NCBI GenBank assembly: GCA_020056565.1
Contig: JAGVHQ010000049.1
Location: forward strand, 1 to 42,867
Direction of reading: 5' to 3'
Length of the DNA: 42,867 bases
Origin: Candidatus Berkelbacteria bacterium
GTDB taxonomy: Bacteria > Patescibacteriota > UBA1384 > JAGVHQ01
Shown: one piece after another, positions 1 through 9,400 of the stretch
Position numbering within the stretch: position 1 is the stretch's first letter
Layout: each line of letters starts with the position of its first letter
Notes under the pieces: model-generated
What the model was told of the DNA's origin: nothing
Database searches by the model: none
The model's input: only the letters and a program-made list of their open reading frames with translations
Made by a program: the position numbers and the translations under genes

Positions 1-7
1 CGGCATC

Positions 8-102
8 AAACTTTTCGGCTCACTCGCCCCATCGGCGTGTTCGCAGTAGAAAGTTTGTGTCTCCTCTTTGCGCGAAATGCAAGCATTTCGCGCAAGAAAA
101 TC
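8..102 (-). repeat. Two-hairpin structured element, copy A
   Basis: First of three copies (others at 4808-4903 and 9309-9400). On the plus strand, AAACTTT (8-14) pairs with AAAGTTT (50-56) around a 35-nt middle. Then comes CTCCT (61-65), then a second stem, GCGCGAAA, loop TGCAAGCA, TTTCGCGC, then a short A-rich tail. The other two copies stand just upstream of minus-strand genes. By analogy this copy would be the leader of a minus-strand gene beyond the left edge. I do not recognise it as a known RNA family. Confidence 0.6.
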
Positions 103-135
103 TAGCGGTTTCGAAACGATATTGCTCGATATCTA

Positions 136-164
136 TTGACACCGAGAAAGATATATGCTATTCT
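136..164 (+). promoter_or_regulatory. Promoter of the lytic transglycosylase gene
   Basis: TTGACA at 136-141 and TATTCT at 159-164 with a 17-nt spacer fit a sigma-70 promoter. The start codon is at 303, so the transcript would have a leader of about 130 nt. Confidence 0.65.
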
Positions 165-200
165 CCTGTGTTCTCTTGGATATGTTCTGAGAGAATTTTT

Positions 201-297
201 GATTCGTCTCCGCCAGTCGGCGGATGACGAATCATCCCGCGTAGTCCCGACACGTCGGGACGAAGTGGGATTTCCTTTCAAGAAGGAATAAAGGAAA
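201..297 (+). promoter_or_regulatory. Structured 5' leader with three consecutive hairpins
   Basis: Hairpin 1 is nested: GATTCGTC/GACGAATC outside and TCCGCC/GGCGGA inside (201-233). Hairpin 2 is nested too: TCCCGC/GTGGGA outside and GTCCCGAC/GTCGGGAC inside (235-270). Hairpin 3 pairs TTTCCTTT (271-278) with AAAGGAAA (290-297), which would hide the AAGGA ribosome binding site of the gene starting at 303. This is consistent with translational control. No known riboswitch class was recognised. Confidence 0.5.
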
Positions 298-302
298 CCT
301 TA

Positions 303-998
303 ATGAAAACTACAGCAAAGAAAATCCGCACAATTCGCCACCAGGCCCTTCCCTTCTGGAAAAAGGCCTCATTTTTTGGTAAACGGGCAGCCGGTATTGC
401 GCGCGTTCTCTTTGCCGTACCTGTAATTGCCGCGGGAGTTGTTCCAGTTCAACCTCTTTCACACTCCCCTGCTTGGGTATCGAGCGCGGGTGTAACGTTA
501 GAGAAATCGGCGGTTCCGACCATCCGTTTTGCGCGAGCTGACTTTACACCTCAAATTGCGTATTCGCGCTCTCAAGCGCGGGATGTTACCGTTCGCGAAC
601 GTCCTCCTCAGGCGGAAATCACCCCTGAACCTTCGTTTGAGCAAAAACGGGCCTTGGTACAACAGGCCGCCGCTCATTATGGAATCGACTGGCCCCCTCT
701 TGAAGCTGTCTGGGAGGTTGAATCCGGTAAAAGCTGGGATACCCAGATTACCTCGTACGCCGGGGCGCAGGGGCCGTGGCAGTTTATGCGTGGTACATGG
801 CGCGCACACGCTTTTGTTGACGGTAACGGCGATGGGGTGATTGCAATTACCTCGGCTGCCGATGGTGCTTTTGCTGCGGCTCACCTTTTAGCTAATTCCG
901 GTGCCGACCGGGGCGACTGGGATGCTGCGTTGTTTTCATATAACCACTCACGCGCGTATGTCCAAAAGGTTAAATCGATCGCAGAATCGATTAAGTAA
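303..998 (+). CDS. Lytic transglycosylase (SLT-like), membrane-anchored or secreted
   Basis: This 231-residue protein has a basic N-terminus and one hydrophobic stretch (about residues 31-48) that is a signal or anchor. After a variable linker it carries a soluble lytic transglycosylase fold from about residue 112. The expected catalytic glutamate is E140 in VWEVESGKSWD. GAQGPWQFMRGTW matches the family's GxxGxxQF/MPxTW region, and NHSRAYVQKV matches the C-terminal substrate-groove motif. Family knowledge: these enzymes cleave the MurNAc-GlcNAc bond of peptidoglycan. The start is set by the GGA-containing site in the leader; a terminator hairpin follows at 1028. It is transcribed alone, opposite to the pilin genes. 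The leader structure suggests regulated expression. Family-level assignment is firm; the substrate detail is inferred. Confidence 0.8.
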   Translation: MKTTAKKIRTIRHQALPFWKKASFFGKRAAGIARVLFAVPVIAAGVVPVQPLSHSPAWVSSAGVTLEKSAVPTIRFARADFTPQIAYSRSQARDVTVRERPPQAEITPEPSFEQKRALVQQAAAHYGIDWPPLEAVWEVESGKSWDTQITSYAGAQGPWQFMRGTWRAHAFVDGNGDGVIAITSAADGAFAAAHLLANSGADRGDWDAALFSYNHSRAYVQKVKSIAESIK

Positions 999-1027
999 CA
1001 GCCAACAGCCAACAGTATAAGGAAAAA

Positions 1028-1052
1028 CCCCGACACAGACGTCGGGGCTCTT
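1028..1052 (+). terminator. Rho-independent terminator after the lytic transglycosylase gene
   Basis: CCCCGAC and GTCGGGG (1028-1047) form a 7-bp stem, followed by a modest T-rich tail. The same hairpin could also serve the converging minus-strand pilin gene. Just before it, 999-1017 carries short AGCCAAC tandem repeats like those at 11246-11309. Confidence 0.6.
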
Positions 1053-1070
1053 GTTCGTGCGAGACGCGCG

Positions 1071-1721
1071 CTACTGCTCGATGGCCATGTTTCGCACATG
1101 CCCATCAAGGTAGAGGCGGTTGCACTTGCGGTCGTGGCCGGAAACCAGGATGTTCTCCTGTACATCTGGTAATGGCCAGAGGGCGTCCGAGAGATAGACC
1201 GTTTCACTGAGCTCCTTTGGCCAGCGCGGATGAAGCGAGACGATGTTGAGTCGAAACGTTCCATCCGGCGAACCAAAGAGGTTGGGTGTGAACAAGGGGT
1301 TCAGCATGTAGCTGGTGACTTGCGCTCGGTGGGAACCCGCTGGTTCGCCATAGGCGACAAAGCTTCCGTTTGCGCGATTCGGGTCGAGATGGCACCAGAA
1401 GACTTCGTTGCTTCGGGTTCGCTCGGCAAGTGCATCGCGCCACTTGCGTGGTTCGCCCGCGATCCAGTTTCCACCAACTCCCATGAGCTTCGTGGTGGAC
1501 CACGGGGGGGCAAAGTCGTCGTAGTCTGTGGCGTACAGCGTCAGCCCCGCATAGAGCTGGCGCATGTTACTTCCGCAATCCGAGATGTGCGCCGCCCGTT
1601 TGGCAGCGATAAAACTCGGAAAGATGATCGCCGCGACGATTGCGACGATCGCGACCACGACCATCACCTCGATGATGGTGAAGCCACGCACCGTGCGGTA
1701 CATGGCGTTGGCGCGTTTCAT
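1071..1721 (-). CDS. Prepilin-type protein with C-terminal H-X9-DG motif
   Basis: A 216-residue protein with a type IV prepilin N-terminus: a basic leader ending in RG, then FTIIEVMVVVAIVAIVAAIIF, which should be cut by prepilin peptidase after the glycine. The C-terminus reads HDRKCNRLYLDGHVR: His, nine residues, then Asp-Gly. This is the signature of the prepilin-type processing-associated H-X9-DG family, known mainly from Planctomycetes, Lentisphaerae and Armatimonadetes. Two adjacent ATGs exist. The second (at 1721) has the better distance from GGAG and overlaps the stop codon of the upstream Cys-rich gene, suggesting translational coupling. The protein is probably a pseudopilin at the cell surface; its real partner is unknown. 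Confidence 0.75.
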   Translation of the reverse strand: MKRANAMYRTVRGFTIIEVMVVVAIVAIVAAIIFPSFIAAKRAAHISDCGSNMRQLYAGLTLYATDYDDFAPPWSTTKLMGVGGNWIAGEPRKWRDALAERTRSNEVFWCHLDPNRANGSFVAYGEPAGSHRAQVTSYMLNPLFTPNLFGSPDGTFRLNIVSLHPRWPKELSETVYLSDALWPLPDVQENILVSGHDRKCNRLYLDGHVRNMAIEQ

Positions 1722-2146
1722 CATGATCTCCTGCACCCGCGTTTGGTGACCCAGCTTGCCTCCTTCTCCCCGGTGCAGTCGCCCGTGTAGAACGTCTCGA
1801 CGTAACACTGGACGTCGAAGCACTTCGGGTTGGGATCCTTGACGCAGCCGGGGATTCGGTTGCTGAAGGTCTTTTGGCTCCCGCCAAAGACCCTCCAACA
1901 CCCGGTTTTTCGGCAAGACCCGAATTTTGTGCAGTTGTCGGGGACGGGAACAGGAGGAATAGGCTCCAACTGCTGCATGGTCGTTCGAGCCAGCTTTTGA
2001 CGGCTGGGCAAGGGGTTGGAGTGGACGACTTTGCAGCCCCCACCCTCGGCCAAAGGCGCGTTGCTTGCGAACGCAACAGAGAGGCTGATCACCCACGCCA
2101 GGACGGCGAAGGGAATCAGCATTGCAAGAAGAGTGGTGCGTTTCAT
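1721..2146 (-). CDS. Small secreted cysteine-rich protein
   Basis: A 141-residue protein with a clear signal sequence (MKRTTLLAMLIPFAVLAW, cleavage likely after AFA near residue 27) and about nine cysteines in the mature part, spaced through the C-terminal half. I do not recognise a family. Its stop codon overlaps the start of the H-X9-DG pilin gene, so the two are translated from one message and probably work together outside the cytoplasm. A GAGGTG site lies about 10 nt before the ATG, and a good promoter lies at 2200-2228. The even cysteine spacing suggests disulfide-stabilised or metal-binding structure, but that is inference. Confidence 0.65.
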   Translation of the reverse strand: MKRTTLLAMLIPFAVLAWVISLSVAFASNAPLAEGGGCKVVHSNPLPSRQKLARTTMQQLEPIPPVPVPDNCTKFGSCRKTGCWRVFGGSQKTFSNRIPGCVKDPNPKCFDVQCYVETFYTGDCTGEKEASWVTKRGCRRS

Positions 2147-2199
2147 ACTAGTTGAACACCTCGAATGAGTTGGAAAAGTGCACTCTGACGTGCACCGTC

Positions 2200-2228
2200 A
2201 GTTTAGATGTTCAACCGAAATAAGTCAA
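2200..2228 (-). promoter_or_regulatory. Promoter of the Cys-rich/H-X9-DG pilin pair
   Basis: On the minus strand, TTGACT (2223-2228) and TAAACT (2200-2205) are separated by 17 nt. A short hairpin (TGACG/CGTCA, 2187-2201) and two GTGCAC words sit at the expected transcript start and may be an operator or leader hairpin. Confidence 0.55.
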
Positions 2229-2282
2229 GAAGTAATAAGCCGGACTGCGGAATCAATCGGTAATTGCAATCCGTAATCTGGA

Positions 2283-2368
2283 GCCGGTTGCCCTGTCCTC
2301 GACGGGTTTGCAAGCGCTTTGGAAGCGAAGCGTTCCAATAAAGCGCCCTGAGAGGATAGGTAACCGGC
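2283..2368. repeat. Composite palindrome
   Basis: Outer arms GCCGGTT (2283-2289) and AACCGGC (2362-2368), extended by TCCTC/GAGGA, enclose an inner hairpin GCGCTTTGGAA/TTCCAATAAAGCGC around GCGAAGCG. It lies between two minus-strand transcription units, downstream of the pilin gene ending at 2401, and has no T-tract. It is one of several nested palindromes in this window. Confidence 0.6.
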
Positions 2369-2400
2369 GATGAGTAAGCAACGAACCATTGGCTGCTTAT

Positions 2401-3075
2401 TCAATAATTCCCTGCCGGATTGCCGGGCCAACCCGGGCTGGCAAGCTGCAAGTACTTTTTCGTATTGCGTATAAAATCGTCTGTCAGTGTGACATCATTT
2501 TGATTTTCCAAAAACGTTACAAAGCGGTACGCCCCACCCTTGCACCCCGCTACCCCCGCATTGTTCGGATCGTCAGCATCTATTACGCCGTCCCCTTCGT
2601 TATCTTGTTTACTTTCGTACTCATACGGAAAGTCTGTGGCCAAATCGCGGGAAAACTCGAAAGCCGGATCTTCGGGTAAGGGGTTGATGTATGCGGGCGC
2701 CAGCAGTGTTTTTACAGGGGAGATCCCTCCTTGGACAATTGTATCCGCATTGAGGTAGTACACACTTGAGCCATTATTGGTCCCCGTATTCGGGTAGCAG
2801 CGTTCGTTCGCCCACAATTGCTCAGCGGCTGCTTCAAGCGCCTTGAGATCGCCTTTGCGCGTTGTATCGCGTGCGGCAATGCGCGCATGCCCCACGGAAA
2901 CCATGATCGTGAGCGCCAAGATCGAGATCACCACGATCACTACGAGGAGTTCGATCAAGGTAAATCCTGCGGATTTACCTTGTGACATGTGATATGTGAC
3001 ATGTAACAAGTTTCGGAAGGGATTCTCCCGCCATCTTTCCGTACTTGTCTCTTGTCTCTTGTCTCTTGTCACCAT
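2401..3075 (-). CDS. Type IV prepilin-like protein (minor pilin/pseudopilin)
   Basis: A 224-residue protein with the prepilin signature GFTLIELLVVIVVISILALTI beginning near residue 37, then an alpha-helix with charged RDTTRKGDLKALEAAAEQL, as in GspG/PilE-like proteins. A Cys pair (CYP and GCKGG) and an acidic DNEGDGVIDADDPNN segment, possibly calcium-binding, follow. The start at 3075 abuts the stop of the upstream pilin gene. An internal ATG at 2988 would give a normal short leader peptide but lacks a ribosome site. The 3000-3070 stretch consists of short direct repeats (GACAAGA units and an ACATGT/ATATGT palindromic series), so the N-terminal 29 residues could be repeat-derived. It should be processed at the inner membrane and assembled in a pilus or pseudopilus. 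Confidence 0.75.
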   Translation of the reverse strand: MVTRDKRQETSTERWRENPFRNLLHVTYHMSQGKSAGFTLIELLVVIVVISILALTIMVSVGHARIAARDTTRKGDLKALEAAAEQLWANERCYPNTGTNNGSSVYYLNADTIVQGGISPVKTLLAPAYINPLPEDPAFEFSRDLATDFPYEYESKQDNEGDGVIDADDPNNAGVAGCKGGAYRFVTFLENQNDVTLTDDFIRNTKKYLQLASPGWPGNPAGNY

Positions 3076-3651
3076 TTAAAAGCTCTTCTCTCCCCATAAA
3101 GCATTGTTCCAGAGTGCACCGCCGGTCTGAATCAAAGTCATTTCCACCTCCCCACAGAATGGTGGGTTTTGACTCGTTGAAACAAGAAAACTGCATAATA
3201 CGACGGGTTGGTCTACATCACCCTCGAGTTCCAGGGCGGCAAGCAACCGGTAGCGGCTCGCGCCTGAGCTCGGAGCAATGACATTGTTTGTGCCATCCGT
3301 GGCCTGGTAGGCGTAGAAGCGGCTCACTGTGTCGCTCTGCGGTCGTGGGTCGTCAGGCACGGTGATGAGAAACTGCGGAACTAGGGCGCTCAGGCCATCT
3401 TCGGCCTTCCAACCATCGTGCATTGAGGGGTATTGGCGCGTTGCTTGAAAATACGTTTCCACCCCAGATTGAATCTGGCGCAAGTCTTCTTTGCGGCGCA
3501 CGTCACGGGCCCGAGCGCGGGCCGTTCCTCCACTGACGGCAACGATCGATATCAAAATTCCAATAATTACCACCACGATCATTATTTCCACTAACGTGAA
3601 CCCCAAGTGACTATTTCTTCGTTGTTGGTGTTGCAATTGTCCCTTCTTCAT
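3076..3651 (-). CDS. Type IV prepilin-like protein
   Basis: A 191-residue protein with a 17-residue basic leader ending in HLG, cleaved before FTLVEIMIVVVIIGILISIVAV. An amphipathic helix (ARDVRRKEDLRQIQSGVETYFQ) and a variable C-terminal domain with two cysteines follow. It overlaps the 3' end of the DUF3048 gene by 41 nt and is directly followed by the next pilin gene, so DUF3048, this gene and the next form one operon on the minus strand. Family knowledge: such proteins are minor subunits of type IV pili or competence pseudopili. The motor and secretin genes are not in this window. Confidence 0.8.
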   Translation of the reverse strand: MKKGQLQHQQRRNSHLGFTLVEIMIVVVIIGILISIVAVSGGTARARARDVRRKEDLRQIQSGVETYFQATRQYPSMHDGWKAEDGLSALVPQFLITVPDDPRPQSDTVSRFYAYQATDGTNNVIAPSSGASRYRLLAALELEGDVDQPVVLCSFLVSTSQNPPFCGEVEMTLIQTGGALWNNALWGEKSF

Positions 3652-4786
3652 ACGTAAATGTTGCTCCGGGTGAAATCACCTCAATCCACATCTGGCCCGG
3701 GTTGAATTTTATCTCCTTGCCATTTTCGTCTTGGAACTGAACCCGTTCTTTTTCATCTGTTTTTTTCCATGTGCCTTTCACAGTTAAACCATCTTGAAAA
3801 ATTGTTGATTTTCCGGAACCGATCGTCTGAAAACTCCACCCCGCTTCGTTGATGCGGGTTGTAATCGGATTTCCATTGAGCTCCACAACAGCCACGACCA
3901 CGGGGGCAATTTGTTTTCCATTGAGCGCATCTTTATGAGCTAGACCAGCCAAAGCGCGTTTATAGGTGTTCGTTTTCACGTCATATGTGTACACGACTTT
4001 GTAGGCAGGGGCAGAGAAATCAATCGTCACGGTTCCCCCACTCGGCCGTTTTTGGGGAGCAAGCGGTTCCTTGAATGTGTAGGCGGTAAAGTTCTGCTGT
4101 GCGCCATATTTGTCTTCTCCTAATGCAAACAGCGTTTTCGTATCCGAAAACATCGTATGTTCAGTCGCCACCCCGGCGCGCGGCTCGCGGTGGTAAGATT
4201 TACCGTTGGCGAATTGATCGAGGTCTAAAACGTTGTCAGAGCGAATTTGGTCCAGGGCGTCAATGTTCCCCCCCACATGCGCAAGATATGCTCCCAACCC
4301 CAAGGCCCAGTCCACAAAATAGGTCCGGGCGCTACGCACTGGCCCGATTTTTTCGGCATCTTGCGGGCCGTACACAGCGAGGAATCGGGTGATGCCACCT
4401 TCCGCGATTGCTTCAAATACTATGCTTGCGGCAGTGAGTCCGCTTTGCGCTCGGGCATCGGTGTGGTTTTCGATTATAACCGCGAGTGGATTACGGGCCG
4501 CCAAAGCCGGTTCAGCCAGCGTGCCGTCCAGCGGCGCGACAACTCGCGTATCTTTCTTTTTATCCTTTCTTTGCAGGATTGATGAAATCGAAGGCGTTTC
4601 TCCCTTAAAATAACGGGTATATACAGCCCACCCGCCCGCAAGTACAACAACCGCAATCAGCCCGATTGCGATCCAGCGCACGGCGCGCTTGGCATTGATG
4701 TTTGATCCCACCCGGATAACGTCTTTTTTGGGTGGAACTACAGGTTGATGATCTTCTCGATCAAACTCGACAAGTTCTTCTGACAT
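3611..4786 (-). CDS. DUF3048 (YerB-like) membrane-anchored protein
   Basis: A 391-residue protein with one transmembrane helix (about residues 36-58, WIAIGLIAVVVLAGGWAVY) and an extracytoplasmic domain. PLAVIIENHTDARAQSGL, ASIVFEAIAEGGITRFLAVY and IGPVRSARTYFVDWA are hallmarks of the DUF3048 family, whose Bacillus member is YerB. The biochemical role of the family is not settled. It heads the pilin operon with an AGGAGGG site seven nucleotides before the ATG. A copy of the two-hairpin repeat element lies 22 bp upstream, in the probable leader, so the operon may be regulated there. Confidence 0.8.
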   Translation of the reverse strand: MSEELVEFDREDHQPVVPPKKDVIRVGSNINAKRAVRWIAIGLIAVVVLAGGWAVYTRYFKGETPSISSILQRKDKKKDTRVVAPLDGTLAEPALAARNPLAVIIENHTDARAQSGLTAASIVFEAIAEGGITRFLAVYGPQDAEKIGPVRSARTYFVDWALGLGAYLAHVGGNIDALDQIRSDNVLDLDQFANGKSYHREPRAGVATEHTMFSDTKTLFALGEDKYGAQQNFTAYTFKEPLAPQKRPSGGTVTIDFSAPAYKVVYTYDVKTNTYKRALAGLAHKDALNGKQIAPVVVAVVELNGNPITTRINEAGWSFQTIGSGKSTIFQDGLTVKGTWKKTDEKERVQFQDENGKEIKFNPGQMWIEVISPGATFTYEEGTIATPTTKK

Positions 4787-4807
4787 ATTCCCTCCTACGT
4801 CACAACT

Positions 4808-4903
4808 AAACTTTTAGGTTCCCCGCCTCATCGGCGGGTTCACGGTAAAAGTTTGTTGCTCCTTTTCACAACAAACGCGGACATTTGTTGTGGGTAAAAC
4901 ATC
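4808..4903 (-). repeat. Two-hairpin structured element, copy B
   Basis: On the plus strand, AAACTTT (4808-4814) pairs with AAAGTTT (4848-4854); inside is CCCGCC/GGCGGG. CTCCT (4859-4863) follows, then CACAACAAA (4867-4875), loop CGCGGACA, TTTGTTGTG (4884-4892) and GGTAAAACATC. Stem sequences differ from the other copies but remain perfectly paired, while the YGCRRRCA loop and flanks are kept. In the minus orientation it ends 22 nt before the DUF3048 start codon. Confidence 0.65.
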
Positions 4904-4974
4904 TGCATCTTGTGCGGGAAAACAAACTACATTTTCAGAATACAGGATTGTAGGCATTCATAATCCATAATTAT

Positions 4975-5184
4975 TTATAATTGACCCTGCATCCACGCCA
5001 AAACAGTACTTAACAGGTTCTTGATAATCGGTACCGAGGCAGGCACGAACAGTACTAAAAGCACGATAAAAAAGATGCTTTTGCGGATAAAATGCACAAA
5101 TACAAGAAGAAACGCGAGTAACAAGAAAAGTGAAACCGCCCAATGGTACTGGGTCGGAAAAAATCCAAGGATTAAATCGTACAC
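4975..5184 (-). CDS. Small hydrophobic membrane protein
   Basis: From the GTG at 5184 this is a 69-residue protein of mostly hydrophobic residues with two to three membrane helices (HWAVSLFLLLAFLLVFVHFI; SIFFIVLLVLFVPASVP). The frame stays open to a GTG at 5244 (89 residues), but TATAGT at about 5209-5214 looks like a -10 box and AAAGGTGG at about 5199-5206 like the ribosome site, which favours a start downstream of them. The spacing to GTG 5184 is long, so the exact start is uncertain. It may share a transcript with the DUF3048 operon downstream. No family recognised. Confidence 0.5.
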   Translation of the reverse strand: MYDLILGFFPTQYHWAVSLFLLLAFLLVFVHFIRKSIFFIVLLVLFVPASVPIIKNLLSTVLAWMQGQL

Positions 5185-5244
5185 TCGCGTTAAGATATCC
5201 ACCTTTCTACTATAGCAAATGTCAGTTATCGAGATATGGGACAC

Positions 5245-5389
5245 AGAACGAGAGCAACGCGTTTCGAAACCGCTCTGTCGGTCTTCCAGCGAGACCTTCT
5301 CGCTACGCGCTCGTCCCGCGGCTCCGACTATGTCGGAGCCTCAGCCCGTCGGGACTGCGCGGGTTTTCTCAACGCATTGCTCTCGTTCT
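5245..5389. repeat. 145-bp composite palindrome
   Basis: Arms at 5245-5263 and 5371-5389 match in inverted orientation at 18 of 19 positions (AGAACGAGAGCAACGCGTT in the left arm). Inside are AGCGAG/CTCGCT, GTCCCG/CGGGAC and a perfect 9-bp stem GGCTCCGAC-tat-GTCGGAGCC (5320-5340). It lies between the divergent small membrane protein and the first LuxR-type gene, just before the promoter of the latter. Confidence 0.7.
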
Positions 5390-5397
5390 TCTGGGGG

Positions 5398-5426
5398 TTG
5401 ACGGTTTAGGGGAAATCAGCTATCAT
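5398..5426 (+). promoter_or_regulatory. Promoter of the first LuxR-type gene
   Basis: TTGACG (5398-5403), a 17-nt spacer and TATCAT (5421-5426). The second LuxR-type gene has the same -10 hexamer and spacer length, which suggests co-regulation. Confidence 0.6.
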
Positions 5427-5477
5427 AATTGGGCGTGTGCTTTTTTGCGCATAGCTTGCCTTCAGGGGGAATTACGG

Positions 5478-5903
5478 ATGAGTTTTGAAAGCAACGGACT
5501 CGTGGGGTTGAGCCCGCGTCAACAAGAGATTCTCGATCTCGCCAAAAGGGGGAAAAAGCCTGCCGATATCATGGCAGCGCTTGAGATTTCGGAAGCTGAT
5601 TTTGAGCGCGATGTGGCAGCGCTGCAAATGTATTCCGCGAGGAAGTCGGCCCTGCAAGGGGCGCGCCGCCTCACCAAGCGTGAGATCGAGGTCTTGAGCC
5701 TGATCGCGCAAGGTCACAGCAGCAAGGAAGCAGCGGAGACTCTGTACGTCTCGAAAAGAACGGTGGATTTTCACCTCGCCAACGTCTACGACAAGTTGCA
5801 GGTGAAAAACCGGGTCCAGGCATTCCGCGCTGCTACGAGATTCGGGTTGATCCCGTTCGAACCAACGTTCGGTGCCGTTTTGGCATCGGTCGGTGAGCGC
5901 TAA
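5478..5903 (+). CDS. Small LuxR/GerE-type HTH protein with two HTH-like halves
   Basis: A 141-residue cytoplasmic protein. The C-terminal half (about residues 65-130) is a canonical LuxR-type helix-turn-helix: RLTKREIEVLSLIAQGHSS with KEAAETLYVSKRTVDFHL as recognition region. The N-terminal half (GLSPRQQEILDLAKRG...) looks like a second, degenerate HTH of the same type. There is no receiver, autoinducer or sensor domain, so it probably binds DNA constitutively or through a partner. An AGGGGGA site precedes the ATG. Its C-terminal half is very similar to the gene at 6661, including the shared PFEPTFGAV tail. The stop codon lies inside a ~130-bp structured element that is repeated after that second gene. 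Confidence 0.8.
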   Translation: MSFESNGLVGLSPRQQEILDLAKRGKKPADIMAALEISEADFERDVAALQMYSARKSALQGARRLTKREIEVLSLIAQGHSSKEAAETLYVSKRTVDFHLANVYDKLQVKNRVQAFRAATRFGLIPFEPTFGAVLASVGER

Positions 5904-6024
5904 CGTCCGTACCTCGGCAAGGCCGCCTCGGCCGAGACGGGCGCTCTCACCCCGCCATCTTGGGAAAACCAAGACTGGCACGCCCCGCTCTCCTTCGGGA
6001 GGGCGGGGTTCATTTTATTTGATT
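5892..6024 (+). repeat. LuxR-gene 3' structured element, copy 1
   Basis: Predicted folds: P1, GGTGAGCGC with GCGCTCTCACC (2-nt bulge); P2, CCGT/ACGG, CTC/GAG and GGCC/GGCC around GCCTC; P3, CTTGG/CCAAG; P4, a long CCCCGC...GCGGGG hairpin with TTCG loop and a T-rich tail, probably a terminator. It starts within the coding region; TAA at 5901-5903 is part of the element. It matches 6908-7039 at all but about eight positions. It may be a 3' UTR-derived small RNA. Confidence 0.65.
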
Positions 6025-6045
6025 TTAACCCCTTGCTCTTTACGC

Positions 6046-6074
6046 TTGAATTGAAGGGGTGTTTGCAGTATCAT
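6046..6074 (+). promoter_or_regulatory. Promoter of the second LuxR-type gene
   Basis: TTGAAT (6046-6051), 17-nt spacer, TATCAT (6069-6074). Same spacer and -10 as the promoter at 5398-5426. Confidence 0.55.
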
Positions 6075-6135
6075 TATCGCAACACAGATCGCGCCTCGGC
6101 GCGTACCTGAAAAAATCGAATCGGAGGGTTTTGCA

Positions 6136-6600
6136 ATGAGCACTGATGCCCCTGGAATTCGTTTCACTACTCTAGAACTGGAGGTTTTGGAGCAACTGCG
6201 CAAGGGCTTTTCGGACAAGGATATCGCCTCGGCGCTTGGGATAACCTCAAGAATCGCTACTTTTCATCTGGCTAGTATGCGCAAAAAAGCAGGTGTGCGT
6301 ACCCGCGACGCGCTTGTGGTGGCCGCGATCAAAGTCGGAATCATTACAACGGACTTCGACGTTAAACCGCGTTTGTTCGTCAAGATCAGGCCCCGCGAAA
6401 TCCAAGCCCTGCAACTGATCGCGGAAGGTAAGTCCCCCAAGGAAACGGCTTGCGCGATGGGGATTGCCAAACGCACCGTGGATACCTACTTGGGAGCAAT
6501 CTACGAGATCTATGGAGTGTGCAATCGCACCCAAGCGCTCGTAAAGGCGCTTCAGCTCGGCCATATCACGCTCCCCGGAGCCGCTGATCCCCCGCAATAG
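6136..6600 (+). CDS. Double LuxR/GerE-type HTH protein
   Basis: A 154-residue protein made of two LuxR-type HTH units. The first (about residues 10-72) includes FTTLELEVLEQLRKGFSDKDIA and RIATFHLASMRKKAGV. The second (about residues 80-145) includes IRPREIQALQLIAEGKSPKETA and KRTVDTYLGAIYEIYGVCNRTQA. There is no sensory domain. A GGAGGG site lies 8 nt before the ATG. It is followed by a perfect hairpin (6601-6626) and then a third LuxR-type gene, possibly on the same transcript. Unlike its neighbours it lacks the repeated 3' element. Role: transcription regulator, target unknown. Confidence 0.75.
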   Translation: MSTDAPGIRFTTLELEVLEQLRKGFSDKDIASALGITSRIATFHLASMRKKAGVRTRDALVVAAIKVGIITTDFDVKPRLFVKIRPREIQALQLIAEGKSPKETACAMGIAKRTVDTYLGAIYEIYGVCNRTQALVKALQLGHITLPGAADPPQ

Positions 6601-6626
6601 GTTCGGCTCGCCCCGGCGAGCTGAAC
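6601..6626 (+). other. Perfect intergenic hairpin
   Basis: GTTCGGCTCGCC and GGCGAGCTGAAC form a 12-bp stem (one G·U pair) with a 2-nt loop directly after the TAG of the second LuxR-type gene. No T-run follows, so it is more likely an mRNA-stability or attenuating hairpin than a full terminator. Confidence 0.55.
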
Positions 6627-6660
6627 ATTTCGACTATTCGATTATAGGAGGGTTACACAC

Positions 6661-6906
6661 ATGTCATCCGCAGAGAAAGGTATCCGTCTCACCAAGCGTC
6701 AAATCGAAGTGTTGACGCTCATCGCTCAGGGCTACAGCAACAAGGAAGCAGCTGACCTGCTGCGCGTTTCCAAGCGAACCATTGAGTGCCATTTGGCCAA
6801 CATCTATGACAAGCTCCAAGTCAACAACCGGACGCAGGCCTTTCGGGCCGCGACCCACTTGGGCTTGTTCCCGTTCGAACCGACTTTCGGTGCCGTTTCG
6901 ATCTAG
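6661..6906 (+). CDS. Single-domain LuxR/GerE-type HTH protein
   Basis: An 81-residue protein that is just one LuxR-type HTH (RLTKRQIEVLTLIAQGYSN, KEAADLLRVSKRTIECHLANIYDKLQVNNRTQA). It is close to the C-terminal half of the gene at 5478 and keeps the same PFEPTFGAV ending, so the two are recent paralogues; this one lacks the N-terminal half. GGAGGG lies 10 nt before the ATG. Its TAG is followed within 2 nt by the second copy of the structured 3' element. It is probably a DNA-binding regulator or a competitor of its longer paralogue; that is inference. Confidence 0.8.
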   Translation: MSSAEKGIRLTKRQIEVLTLIAQGYSNKEAADLLRVSKRTIECHLANIYDKLQVNNRTQAFRAATHLGLFPFEPTFGAVSI

Positions 6907-6907
6907 T

Positions 6908-7039
6908 GGTGAGCGCTAACGTCCGTACCTCGGCAAGGACGCCTCGTCCGAGACGGGCGCTCCCACCACGCCATCTTGGGAAACCAAGACCGGCACGCCC
7001 CGCCTTCCTTCGGGAGGGCGGGGTTCATTTTATTTGATT
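6908..7039 (+). repeat. LuxR-gene 3' structured element, copy 2
   Basis: Nearly identical to 5892-6024. Differences keep pairing: the P2 stem is GGAC/GTCC here and GGCC/GGCC in copy 1, a compensatory change. P1 is extended by GT/AC. The terminal GC-rich hairpin has an inner CT-to-TT change. It overlaps the 3' end of the converging nfo gene (stop at 7030). Confidence 0.65.
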
Positions 7040-7899
7040 CCAAGCTGAGTGCGGATTGTATCGAGCCAGGCCGTATCTGGCGGCGCGGTTTTGAGCGCGG
7101 GTGTTTCTAAAATGAAGTTAAAATCTCGAAAGCGTGGATGATGTACAAAACGCGTCAAGGCATCTAAGCCGATCTCCCCTTTACCGATGTCCTCGTGCCG
7201 GTCCGCGCCCGAGCCAAAGGGGGCCTTGCTGTCGTTTAAGTGGATAAACTCCACCCTCTCAAACCCGATTGTTTTTTCGATCGTTACTACCAGTTCTTCG
7301 AGAGCCGCTTGAGTGCGCAACTCCACGCCCGAAGTAAACATATGGGCCGTATCGAGCGTCACGCCGAAATTATATTTTTCAAACGGGTCCAAAATGGTTG
7401 TAAGCTCCTCAAATGTTTTGCCGATGTGACTGCCCGTGCCGGCCGAAAACTCAAGGCACAAACGGACACTGTCAGGTTCGTAACGGTCAAGGGTGGCGCA
7501 GAGGCGCCGCAGGGCCTCATGCACCCGTTCCAGCCCGACTTTGAACCCCTCATCTTTGGGCGAGCCGACGTGGGTTACGACTGCCCGAGCGCCAATTTCG
7601 CGCCCCAGAAGCAGCGCATCTACGAGGGCCTGGATCGAGAGCTCCCAAAATTGGGGCGTGGACGAAGCCAGATTGATCAGATAAATCGTATGGATAAACG
7701 CCGGGCCGACCCCGAGTTTTTTTGTGCGCGCGCGGAATTGTTCTTTTTCGAAATCGCTCACTTTAGTTTGGCGCCAGTTACGCGGGTTTGTATTGAAAAT
7801 TTGAAATCCTTCACACCCCATTTGGCGCGCACGTTCAGGCGCATTGGAGAGTGTTCCGGCAATCGAAACGTGCGCCCCGAGTTTAATTGGGTGTTGCAT
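7030..7899 (-). CDS. nfo: Endonuclease IV (apurinic/apyrimidinic endonuclease)
   Basis: A 289-residue protein, the usual length for Nfo. It hydrolyses the phosphodiester 5' of abasic sites in base excision repair. Metal-site motifs are visible: GAHVS near the N-terminus, FIHTIYLIN, VTHVGS, LEFSAG (normally LENTAG), LDTAHMF, FIHLNDSK, DRHEDIGKGEIG and the C-terminal LETP. The TIM-barrel order is complete. The ATG at 7899 is immediately preceded by the end of a 273-bp inverted-repeat element. There is no clear ribosome binding site, so translation initiation may depend on that junction. It converges with the LuxR-type gene and shares its 3' end with the structured element. Confidence 0.92.
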   Translation of the reverse strand: MQHPIKLGAHVSIAGTLSNAPERARQMGCEGFQIFNTNPRNWRQTKVSDFEKEQFRARTKKLGVGPAFIHTIYLINLASSTPQFWELSIQALVDALLLGREIGARAVVTHVGSPKDEGFKVGLERVHEALRRLCATLDRYEPDSVRLCLEFSAGTGSHIGKTFEELTTILDPFEKYNFGVTLDTAHMFTSGVELRTQAALEELVVTIEKTIGFERVEFIHLNDSKAPFGSGADRHEDIGKGEIGLDALTRFVHHPRFRDFNFILETPALKTAPPDTAWLDTIRTQLGIK

Positions 7900-8172
7900 A
7901 AGAGTGCAGGATTCAAACCAAAGCCAGTTGAGCGGAGCGTATGGAAGTTAGATTCAAGGCGTAAGGAGCGCTGCGTACCTTTAGGTACGTAAGCGACGCG
8001 CAACGCAGAAGATGACCTACATACGCTCCGCCCGCAGCGGGAAGTTCAAAAATGGTTGATTTCTTCGTTACTCCTCCTCACTGTGCCACAAGGCACACCT
8101 TCGTCGTCGCGCCTTGAAATTATCTCATTTTTTAACTTCTCAATCTGATTCTGGTTTGAATCCTGCACTCTT
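7900..8172. repeat. 273-bp element with 21-bp perfect terminal inverted repeats
   Basis: Positions 7900-7920 and 8152-8172 are exact inverted copies (left end AAGAGTGCAGGATTCAAACC). A second, inner inverted match is TTCAAGGCG (about 7953) with CGCCTTGAA (about 8110). Inner hairpins CGTACC/GGTACG and TGTGCC/GGCACA sit in each half. A degenerate direct copy of the terminal motif (TTTGAATCCTGGACTCT) follows at 8172-8188. It has no ORF and fills the whole gap between nfo and the protease gene. It resembles a non-autonomous mobile element. Confidence 0.7.
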
Positions 8173-8186
8173 TTGAATCCTGGACT

Positions 8187-8990
8187 CTACGCCCTTTTCT
8201 TGATAAATCTGCGGCCGCTGTACAGTGCTCCGGCAACCATAAGCGAGAGGACAATCATACCAAGACTGAGCAACGTTGCCATCAGGAGCACTTCCCGCCC
8301 GACTGAAGGATCAATTGCTTGGGCGGCAAAGTATCCCCCGCCCCCCAAAAGAAGCGCGTCTACAAATACATAGCTGAGGTTTTCGTGCTGTTTCATGAGC
8401 TCCACCAGCGCAATAAAGAGGAAAACCACGAACCAAAGATTCGTGAGCGTCGCGATAACGGCGATCAGGATTCCGATTCCGGCCGATCGCAAATCCACCA
8501 TACTCGGCGCAAGCGAGGCCGAAACCGTGAGAATAACAACGAGCATCACCCAACTTTCGATTGAGAGCGGGTTGAACACTTGGATAAATGTCCCAAGCCA
8601 AGCGCCATAGATTTGAGTAAGGGGCTGAGCGAGATCGGTTGCCAGGAGCGCCTCGAACAGTTCGGGGGTTAAGAAGCTCAGGGTCGCAACAATCACAAAT
8701 AAGCCACCTACGATCGGTGCGAGCGCCACGATCGCGTTGCCGATATAGGGCACCCGCGGCTGCGTATGTTTTACGTGCCCGCCGGTGGGCGAAAGAAGTG
8801 CGAGCTCCTCCACACGCGCGCCAACAATAAAACAGGCCACTGCGTGCGAGAGCTCATGCACGATAATCCCCGGGGACAAGCTCCAGCGATACCATTTGTA
8901 TGGAAGTGCGCGTACCAGGAGCCAATTGAGCGCTTCTCCGCCTAAAACTACAAACGTCAGCCAACCGAGAAAAATTACAATTTCAGTCAT
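8187..8990 (-). CDS. M50-like membrane metalloprotease-type protein
   Basis: A 267-residue multi-pass membrane protein. SPGIIVHELSHAVACFIVGA contains the HExxH-type zinc motif (HELSH) near residue 45, as in M50 site-2 proteases and related 'peptidase M50B-like' proteins. Further helices follow (IGNAIVALAPIVGGLFVIVATL, SWVMLVVILTVSASLAPSMVDL); the asparagine-rich NPDG-type third ligand is not obvious, but MVDLRSAG may take that place. The ATG at 8990 is preferred over one at 9053. AGTGTA (minus TACACT) lies 7 nt upstream, suggesting a nearly leaderless transcript. Activity and substrate are unknown. Confidence 0.65.
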   Translation of the reverse strand: MTEIVIFLGWLTFVVLGGEALNWLLVRALPYKWYRWSLSPGIIVHELSHAVACFIVGARVEELALLSPTGGHVKHTQPRVPYIGNAIVALAPIVGGLFVIVATLSFLTPELFEALLATDLAQPLTQIYGAWLGTFIQVFNPLSIESWVMLVVILTVSASLAPSMVDLRSAGIGILIAVIATLTNLWFVVFLFIALVELMKQHENLSYVFVDALLLGGGGYFAAQAIDPSVGREVLLMATLLSLGMIVLSLMVAGALYSGRRFIKKRA

Positions 8991-9029
8991 TAGTTTAAGT
9001 GTACATCTTCTCTCTTCGTTCGAAGTAAA

Positions 9030-9046
9030 TGGCGCTCTCGGCGGGA
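9030..9046. repeat. Duplicate of the tRNA-Arg 3' end (att-like site)
   Basis: TGGCGCTCTCGGCGGGA is an exact 17-bp direct repeat of 9222-9238, the 3' end of tRNA-Arg including CCA. Such duplications mark tRNA-targeted integration. The 175 bp between the copies hold only hairpins (CTGAGAACC/GGTTCTCAG, CGGGAAAA/TTTTCCCG, AACCCAC/GTGGGTT) and no credible ORF, so any element is now only a remnant. Confidence 0.6.
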
Positions 9047-9221
9047 ATCTCACGCGTCCCTCGACTTCACTCGGGACTTTCTGAGAACCCCTCGGTTCTC
9101 AGCGCATCGGAATGCTACTTTCCGCAACGGGAAAACTCCCGTTTTCCCGACCCCTTTCCCCGTTCGAATCCCCCTAAACAAACAAGTTACAAACAACCCA
9201 CAAAAGTGGGTTATTCGTAAC

Positions 9222-9297
9222 TGGCGCTCTCGGCGGGATTCGAACCCACGGCCTCTACCTCCGGAGGGTAGCGCTCTATCCGCTGAGCTACGAGAGC
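9222..9297 (-). tRNA. tRNA-Arg (anticodon CCG)
   Basis: A 76-nt tRNA on the minus strand with CCA encoded. The acceptor stem is GCTCTCG/CGAGAGC (7 bp) and the D stem GCTC/GAGC. The anticodon stem CTACC/GGTAG holds loop CTCCGGA, so the anticodon is CCG (reads CGG, Arg). The T stem GTGGG/CCCGC has loop TTCGAAT. All arms are intact. Structured element copy C lies 11 bp upstream of its 5' end. Confidence 0.95.
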
Positions 9298-9308
9298 ACG
9301 TCGGCGCT

Positions 9309-9400
9309 AAAGTTTCCGGCTCGTTACTGCGTAACGTGCGCAGGGAAACTTTGCGCCTCCTCTTCGCAGCAAACGCAAGCATTTGCTGCGGTAAAACACC
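9309..9400 (-). repeat. Two-hairpin structured element, copy C
   Basis: On the plus strand, AAAGTTT (9309-9315) pairs with AAACTTT (9346-9352). This is the reverse combination of copies A and B, so the base pair flipped while pairing was kept. CTCCT (9357-9361) follows, then CGCAGCAAA (9365-9373), loop CGCAAGCA, TTTGCTGCG (9382-9390) and GTAAAACACC. On the minus strand it is directly upstream of tRNA-Arg. Confidence 0.65.

Follow-up and report, generated by a model that had tools for sequence, protein, structure and literature searches.

The three repeats of the window, by which we mean the whole 42,867-nucleotide stretch that was analysed and which is an entire contig (contig 2 of 64) of the 0.8-Mb home genome, are members of a previously unlisted folded-RNA family that is present in many small-genome bacteria of one phylum, probably Patescibacteria as judged from genome size and gene content. 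The fold is conserved, its 3' end is placed exactly with respect to genes, and copies occur across classes of the phylum. The family probably sets the start of a mature RNA or protein. All three copies reported in the initial annotation are present, and their parts are listed in Table 1.

Table 1. Copies of the element in the window, the genes next to them, and arrays of truncated units at other loci of the home genome
Feature	Position	Strand	Basis or remark
Copy A, whole element	1–103	-	Model R1, 93.4 bits; 3' end lost at contig end
Copy A, P1 hairpin	69–94	-	Fold and covariation
Copy A, AAGAGGAG linker, Shine-Dalgarno-like	61–68	-	Near-invariant in alignments
Copy A, P2 long-range stem with inner hairpin P3	3–60	-	Fold and covariation
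Copy B, whole element, putative DUF3048 gene leader	4794–4901	-	R1, 95 bits; independent R3, 28.6 bits
Copy B, P1 hairpin, UCCG loop	4867–4892	-	Fold and covariation
Copy B, AAAAGGAG linker	4859–4866	-	Sequence and alignment
Copy B, P2 stem with inner hairpin	4803–4858	-	Fold and covariation
Copy B, conserved 3' end TGACG	4798–4802	-	Alignment and placement
DUF3048 gene	3611–4786	-	Pfam PF11258 and PF17479
Copy C, whole element	9295–9399	-	R1, 106 bits; independent R3, 35.4 bits
Copy C, P1 hairpin	9365–9390	-	Fold and covariation
Copy C, AAGAGGAG linker	9357–9364	-	Sequence and alignment
Copy C, P2 stem with inner hairpin, GCA loop	9304–9356	-	Fold and covariation
Copy C, conserved 3' end CGACG	9299–9303	-	1 nt ahead of tRNA
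tRNA-Arg(CCG)	9222–9297	-	ARAGORN, Rfam RF00005; 5' end 1 nt past copy C CGACG
Complete copy preceded by tandem truncated P1-AGGAG units	L046 7030–7258; L048 6590–6931; L052 3985–4178; L070 3737–3900		

Read as RNA, the element begins with a U-rich, weakly conserved 5' start, which the initial annotation had taken for an A-rich tail. This start is followed by the P1 hairpin, the linker AAGAGGAG, the long-range stem P2, which encloses a variable hairpin P3, and a terminal CGACG. The outer pairs of P1 vary freely with compensation and the inner AAAUG/CAUUU pairs are mostly conserved; the supposedly fixed 8-nt loop is closed by U-G and G-C pairs of the sense strand, leaving 3–4 nt. P2 consists of 4 + 7 pairs with covariation in both arms, then two more pairs beside a purine-rich internal loop. 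The AAACTTT/AAAGTTT stem described earlier does exist, but it is longer than had been drawn and runs on into pairs of the GGCAC/GTGCC type before the element ends in CGACG. The internal loop (GNAGC/GCGAAG) is conserved beside the covarying stems, as would be expected if a ligand were bound there by a metabolite- or protein-sensing riboswitch or operator of translation genes. We consider such a sensor very improbable, as no alternative terminator or sequestering fold was seen, the element stands before tRNAs and many unlike genes, and its outer sequences are free to vary.

Across the model match, the minus strand of the three window copies folds with energies of -39.5 to -47.4 kcal/mol, and slightly shorter stretches give fold z-scores of -3.2 to -4.8 against shuffles. 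Both strands of these copies beat their shuffles, the minus strand somewhat better for copies B and C. The covariation of the stems noticed in the initial annotation is strong in two alignments. When 12 copies are aligned freely with MAFFT, 97.6% of stem cells pair (shuffles: 83.7 ± 1.3) and 41 changes are two-sided (shuffles: 11.6 ± 2.8). In a model-fitted alignment of 39 rows, which is biased toward structure, the values are 98.2% against 75.4 ± 0.9 and 201 against 52 ± 6.

The window copies most likely function from their minus strand, here taken as the sense strand, because CGACG directly precedes genes on that strand and because the pairing exceptions in the home genome are G-U rather than A-C (22 versus 7). 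These exceptions are even in the relatives (29 G-U versus 27 A-C), and therefore the wobble argument is weak when taken alone. An intrinsic terminator was rejected since a U tract is absent (P1 is followed by the linker and P2 by CGACG), and an integron attC site was rejected because R boxes are absent on inspection.

A 34-base pattern derived from the window copies has 15 matches in the home genome and none when reversed. The covariance model R1, built from 12 of these 15 matches, finds about 38 full copies in the home genome, plus fragments. The family at first appeared to be restricted to the home lineage. This was overturned when R1, run on a sample of the phylum, gave one match in a genome of another class (G361), flush with a tRNA 5' end. 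R2 gives 12 copies in 7 genomes around G361, and a third model, R3, was made from those 12 distant copies only; its alignment is 92.8% paired against 73.5%, with 57 two-sided cells against 17. R3 has matches in 22 of 380 genomes of the phylum, belonging to nine families, at E ≤ 1e-4, these E-values being rough. Used in reverse, it recovers 30 of the home genome's 38 copies (E ≤ 0.01). Outside the home genome the family has about 58 copies, a lower bound since scoring was limited to nine candidates in each genome. The 60 nearest of the genomes searched, and 54 others of the home class, gave no copy, and a pattern scan of 84,980 species genomes gave two matches, both rejected by the model.

No Rfam 15 family matches the element above its gathering threshold, at home or in the relatives, so that the earlier remark that no RNA family fits holds for this release. 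Elsewhere in the searched DNA, Rfam 15 matches are confined to tRNA, tmRNA, rRNA, group I intron and cobalamin; among these is a group I intron match (RF00028) at 2359–2581 in a 23S rRNA gene (L071 347–3652). The element is undescribed in the open-access literature that was searched. A phage or plasmid origin was rejected, there being no blastn match and no viral match.

Placement in the relatives varies little. Twenty-seven copies are flush with the 5' end of a tRNA or tmRNA, mostly starting exactly 1 nt past CGACG, and in about 19 a start codon lies -1 to +2 nt from CGACG; two are flush with a tRNA 3' end, and the remainder are weak or have no assigned neighbour. A 100-aa ORF starts at 19 of 61 element ends, compared with 2.5% for the remaining GACG occurrences in these loci. 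The neighbouring genes, called unrelated in the initial annotation, are indeed so within the window, but in the relatives they are mostly tRNAs, tmRNA and translation genes. They include the ribosomal-protein genes for L10, L7/L12, L17, L36, S3, S11 (in two genomes) and S12, as well as EF-P, HisRS-like, NrdR, ClpC, thymidylate synthase and CorA. The same gene can carry the element in different families, as tRNA-Arg(GCG) does in f66, f42, f154 and the home genome, and clpC has it in three f66 genomes.

Strong sigma-70-like promoters end at the 5' edge of the element in the clpC copies (L094, L097 and L098). On the other side, the upstream co-directional gene ends within 60 nt in 29 of 58 relatives' copies. 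The module therefore often makes up the whole intercistronic gap, and acts locally, beyond the vicinity of promoters too. The adjacent genes for L10 and L7/L12 each have a copy of their own. These observations bear on a reading in which the nascent RNA signals to RNA polymerase, by antitermination or attenuation when stable RNAs and ribosomal-protein genes are transcribed. The put and EAR RNAs, structured cis-acting leaders of roughly 70–120 nt, are known for such RNA-based processive antitermination. Many copies do lie in leader position near promoters, and the gene set is typical of growth-rate control. However, the module is promoter-proximal in some copies and intercistronic in half of the relatives' copies, as in the L10 and L7/L12 pair, and its intercistronic and flush positions differ from those of put and EAR. 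A polymerase signal would not need such strict 3' spacing to an AUG or a tRNA. We therefore regard a signal to the polymerase as improbable.

The home genome shows a more mixed picture. In every placeable case it is the CGACG end, never the P1 end, that sits at the gene. Six copies directly adjoin the 5' end of a tRNA, and 11 lie on the strand opposite a tRNA and adjoin its 3' end; of the 45 tRNA genes, 16 have the element. One copy lies about 10 nt beyond the 3' end of the 5S rRNA. Home tRNA genes that lack the element (L079, L090, L046 7341) often have ordinary terminator hairpins 0–3 nt past the encoded CCA. About nine copies precede start codons, usually with a Shine-Dalgarno shortly past CGACG; the genes include those for RecA, a PilT-like ATPase, PilM and DUF3048. 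In the window, copies B and C had been described as ending 22 and 11 nt before their genes. The distances are in fact 11 nt to the DUF3048 start codon, with a Shine-Dalgarno of its own in between, and 1 nt to tRNA-Arg, whose 5' end is overlapped by the last model positions of copy C. The window also holds, at 5478–6906 of the plus strand, a series of small ORFs resembling LuxR-type helix-turn-helix proteins, with a near-identical stretch (TAACGTCCGTACCTCGGCAAGG...GGGAGGGCGGGGTTCATTTTATTTGATT) downstream of two of them.

The initial annotation had asked for further homologues, significant covariation and a non-random orientation in other genomes. Homologues are abundant, covariation is strong, and nearly all placed copies of the relatives are in leader position, but orientation is mixed at home, with about 22 leader-type copies and about 16 that lie antisense and face gene 3' ends. 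A -10-like box occurs 25–40 nt upstream of P1 in many leader-type home copies and is mostly absent in the antisense type. A link of orientation to replication was rejected, the sign of the GC skew being inconsistent.

It is possible, though we think rather unlikely, that the family is at heart a structured mobile repeat whose CGACG end inserts at gene boundaries, which brings along a usable leader, and whose leader positions are kept by selection. The mixed home orientation, together with a CGACG end that is invariably next to the gene, would fit such a repeat. So would the layered arrays seen at several home sites (Table 1), and also at L133, where one or more P1-AGGAG units, presumably older, are cut just past the P2 5' arm and stand behind a complete copy; these tandem units suggest repeated replacement at the same gene boundary. 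A likeness of 83–87% is seen among the copies close to tRNA-Asp, to tRNA-Pro and to the 3' end of an ORF, and beyond the genus level copies are often closer within a genome than are same-gene copies between genomes. On the other hand, recent near-identical copies are absent, the stems are near-perfect even in diverged copies, and exact spacings of 1 nt or 0–2 nt are atypical of insertion. The clpC leader is also kept between species: its copies in two genomes of the same genus are 94% alike, and the likeness to a third genome, from a different genus, is 84%. This pattern of similarity fits a leader that is functional and is also spreading, or being homogenised, within genomes. At two loci (L049 3564–3790 and L061 3836–4070), the element is framed by a longer shared repeat (CATCTTCGCTCG...GATGTTCTTCGA) that is inverted in part, which may point to an outer helix or to duplication of a larger unit.

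The nearest known mobile parallel is that of REP/BIME elements and their RAYT transposases, which likewise are palindromes present between genes in many copies, with a conserved foot and a covarying stem. However, the module is two-stemmed, keeps its 3' edge fixed at gene starts and is conserved across classes. The home genome has a single Y1 (RAYT-like) transposase gene (L091 1297–1980, home contig 34), with the palindrome AAGGACACTTCCGAAGTGTCCTT on both sides. As this is a different palindrome and the module is absent there, an REP/RAYT element was rejected, and a mobile repeat would be left without a linked transposase.

Two constraints bear on mechanism, namely that the 3' edge is fixed relative to a tRNA or an AUG and that the module occurs both behind promoters and between genes. 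In addition, the conservation of AGGAG is about the same ahead of tRNAs and ahead of ORFs; translation alone is therefore insufficient, and AGGAG must also serve structure or another factor. On these grounds we propose, with slightly better than even confidence, a cis-acting RNA module that marks the 5' boundary of genes, its folded form setting the 5' edge through 5'-end processing and a helix-bridged translation start. The element would be transcribed either as the complete leader or, where genes are co-transcribed, as all of the spacer between them, and would fold as P1, the linker, P2(P3) and CGACG, its 3' edge being the hand-over point. Before a tRNA or tmRNA, RNase P or a structure-specific nuclease would cut the folded leader to give the 5' end. 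In mRNAs, ribosomes would read the folded module directly, with the invariant AGGAG serving as Shine-Dalgarno at the AUG-flush genes. In the window, copies B and C would be the leaders of the DUF3048 gene and tRNA-Arg, and copy A would face a gene past the contig end.

The geometry of such a split ribosome-binding site (AGGAG, P2, CGACG plus 0–2 nt, AUG) is seen, as geometry, in about 19 relatives' copies. These AUG-flush copies leave no space for a second Shine-Dalgarno, and AGGAG lies at the base of P2. In T4 genes 38 and 25, folded RNA between the Shine-Dalgarno and the AUG shortens their distance from 22 to 5 and from 27 to 11 nt (PMC3014915). In our model, the P2 helix would similarly bring AGGAG from about 63–70 nt to 5–7 nt from the AUG. 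However, the T4 cases are single-gene hairpins, whereas here a large covarying module is reused, also before untranslated tRNAs. The module likewise resembles the cis-regulatory and ribosomal-protein leaders of Rfam, structured 5' leaders of which many precede ribosomal-protein genes. It differs in that one fold stands before L10, L7/L12, S3, S11, S12, L17, L36 and tRNAs, and it is therefore not a mimic specific to one protein.

Some observations count against the boundary module. Leader use is not obvious for the roughly 16 of 38 home copies that run antisense into gene 3' ends; they are the main point that this reading leaves unaccounted for, and spread as a repeat may be their source. A separate downstream Shine-Dalgarno is present at most home mRNA copies, and the wobble evidence for the strand is mixed. 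The interpretation in the initial annotation is thus partly supported: of its options, a regulatory leader or processing signal is favoured, and a structured mobile repeat may describe the mode of spread at home.

A tentative extension of the boundary module, which we hold to be possible rather than probable, is that it is the general 5'-boundary RNA of one phylum, releasing the 5' ends of tRNAs and tmRNA and starting translation of ribosomal-protein and other mRNAs. It would then be a single gene-delimiting device for compact genomes, unmatched in known bacteria. Gene expression in these bacteria with tiny genomes is almost unexplored. If the proposal is true, a module reused before tRNAs, tmRNA and ribosomal-protein genes would show how compact genomes separate and start their genes, would provide a covariance model for annotating such genomes, and would offer a portable, testable folded translation start.
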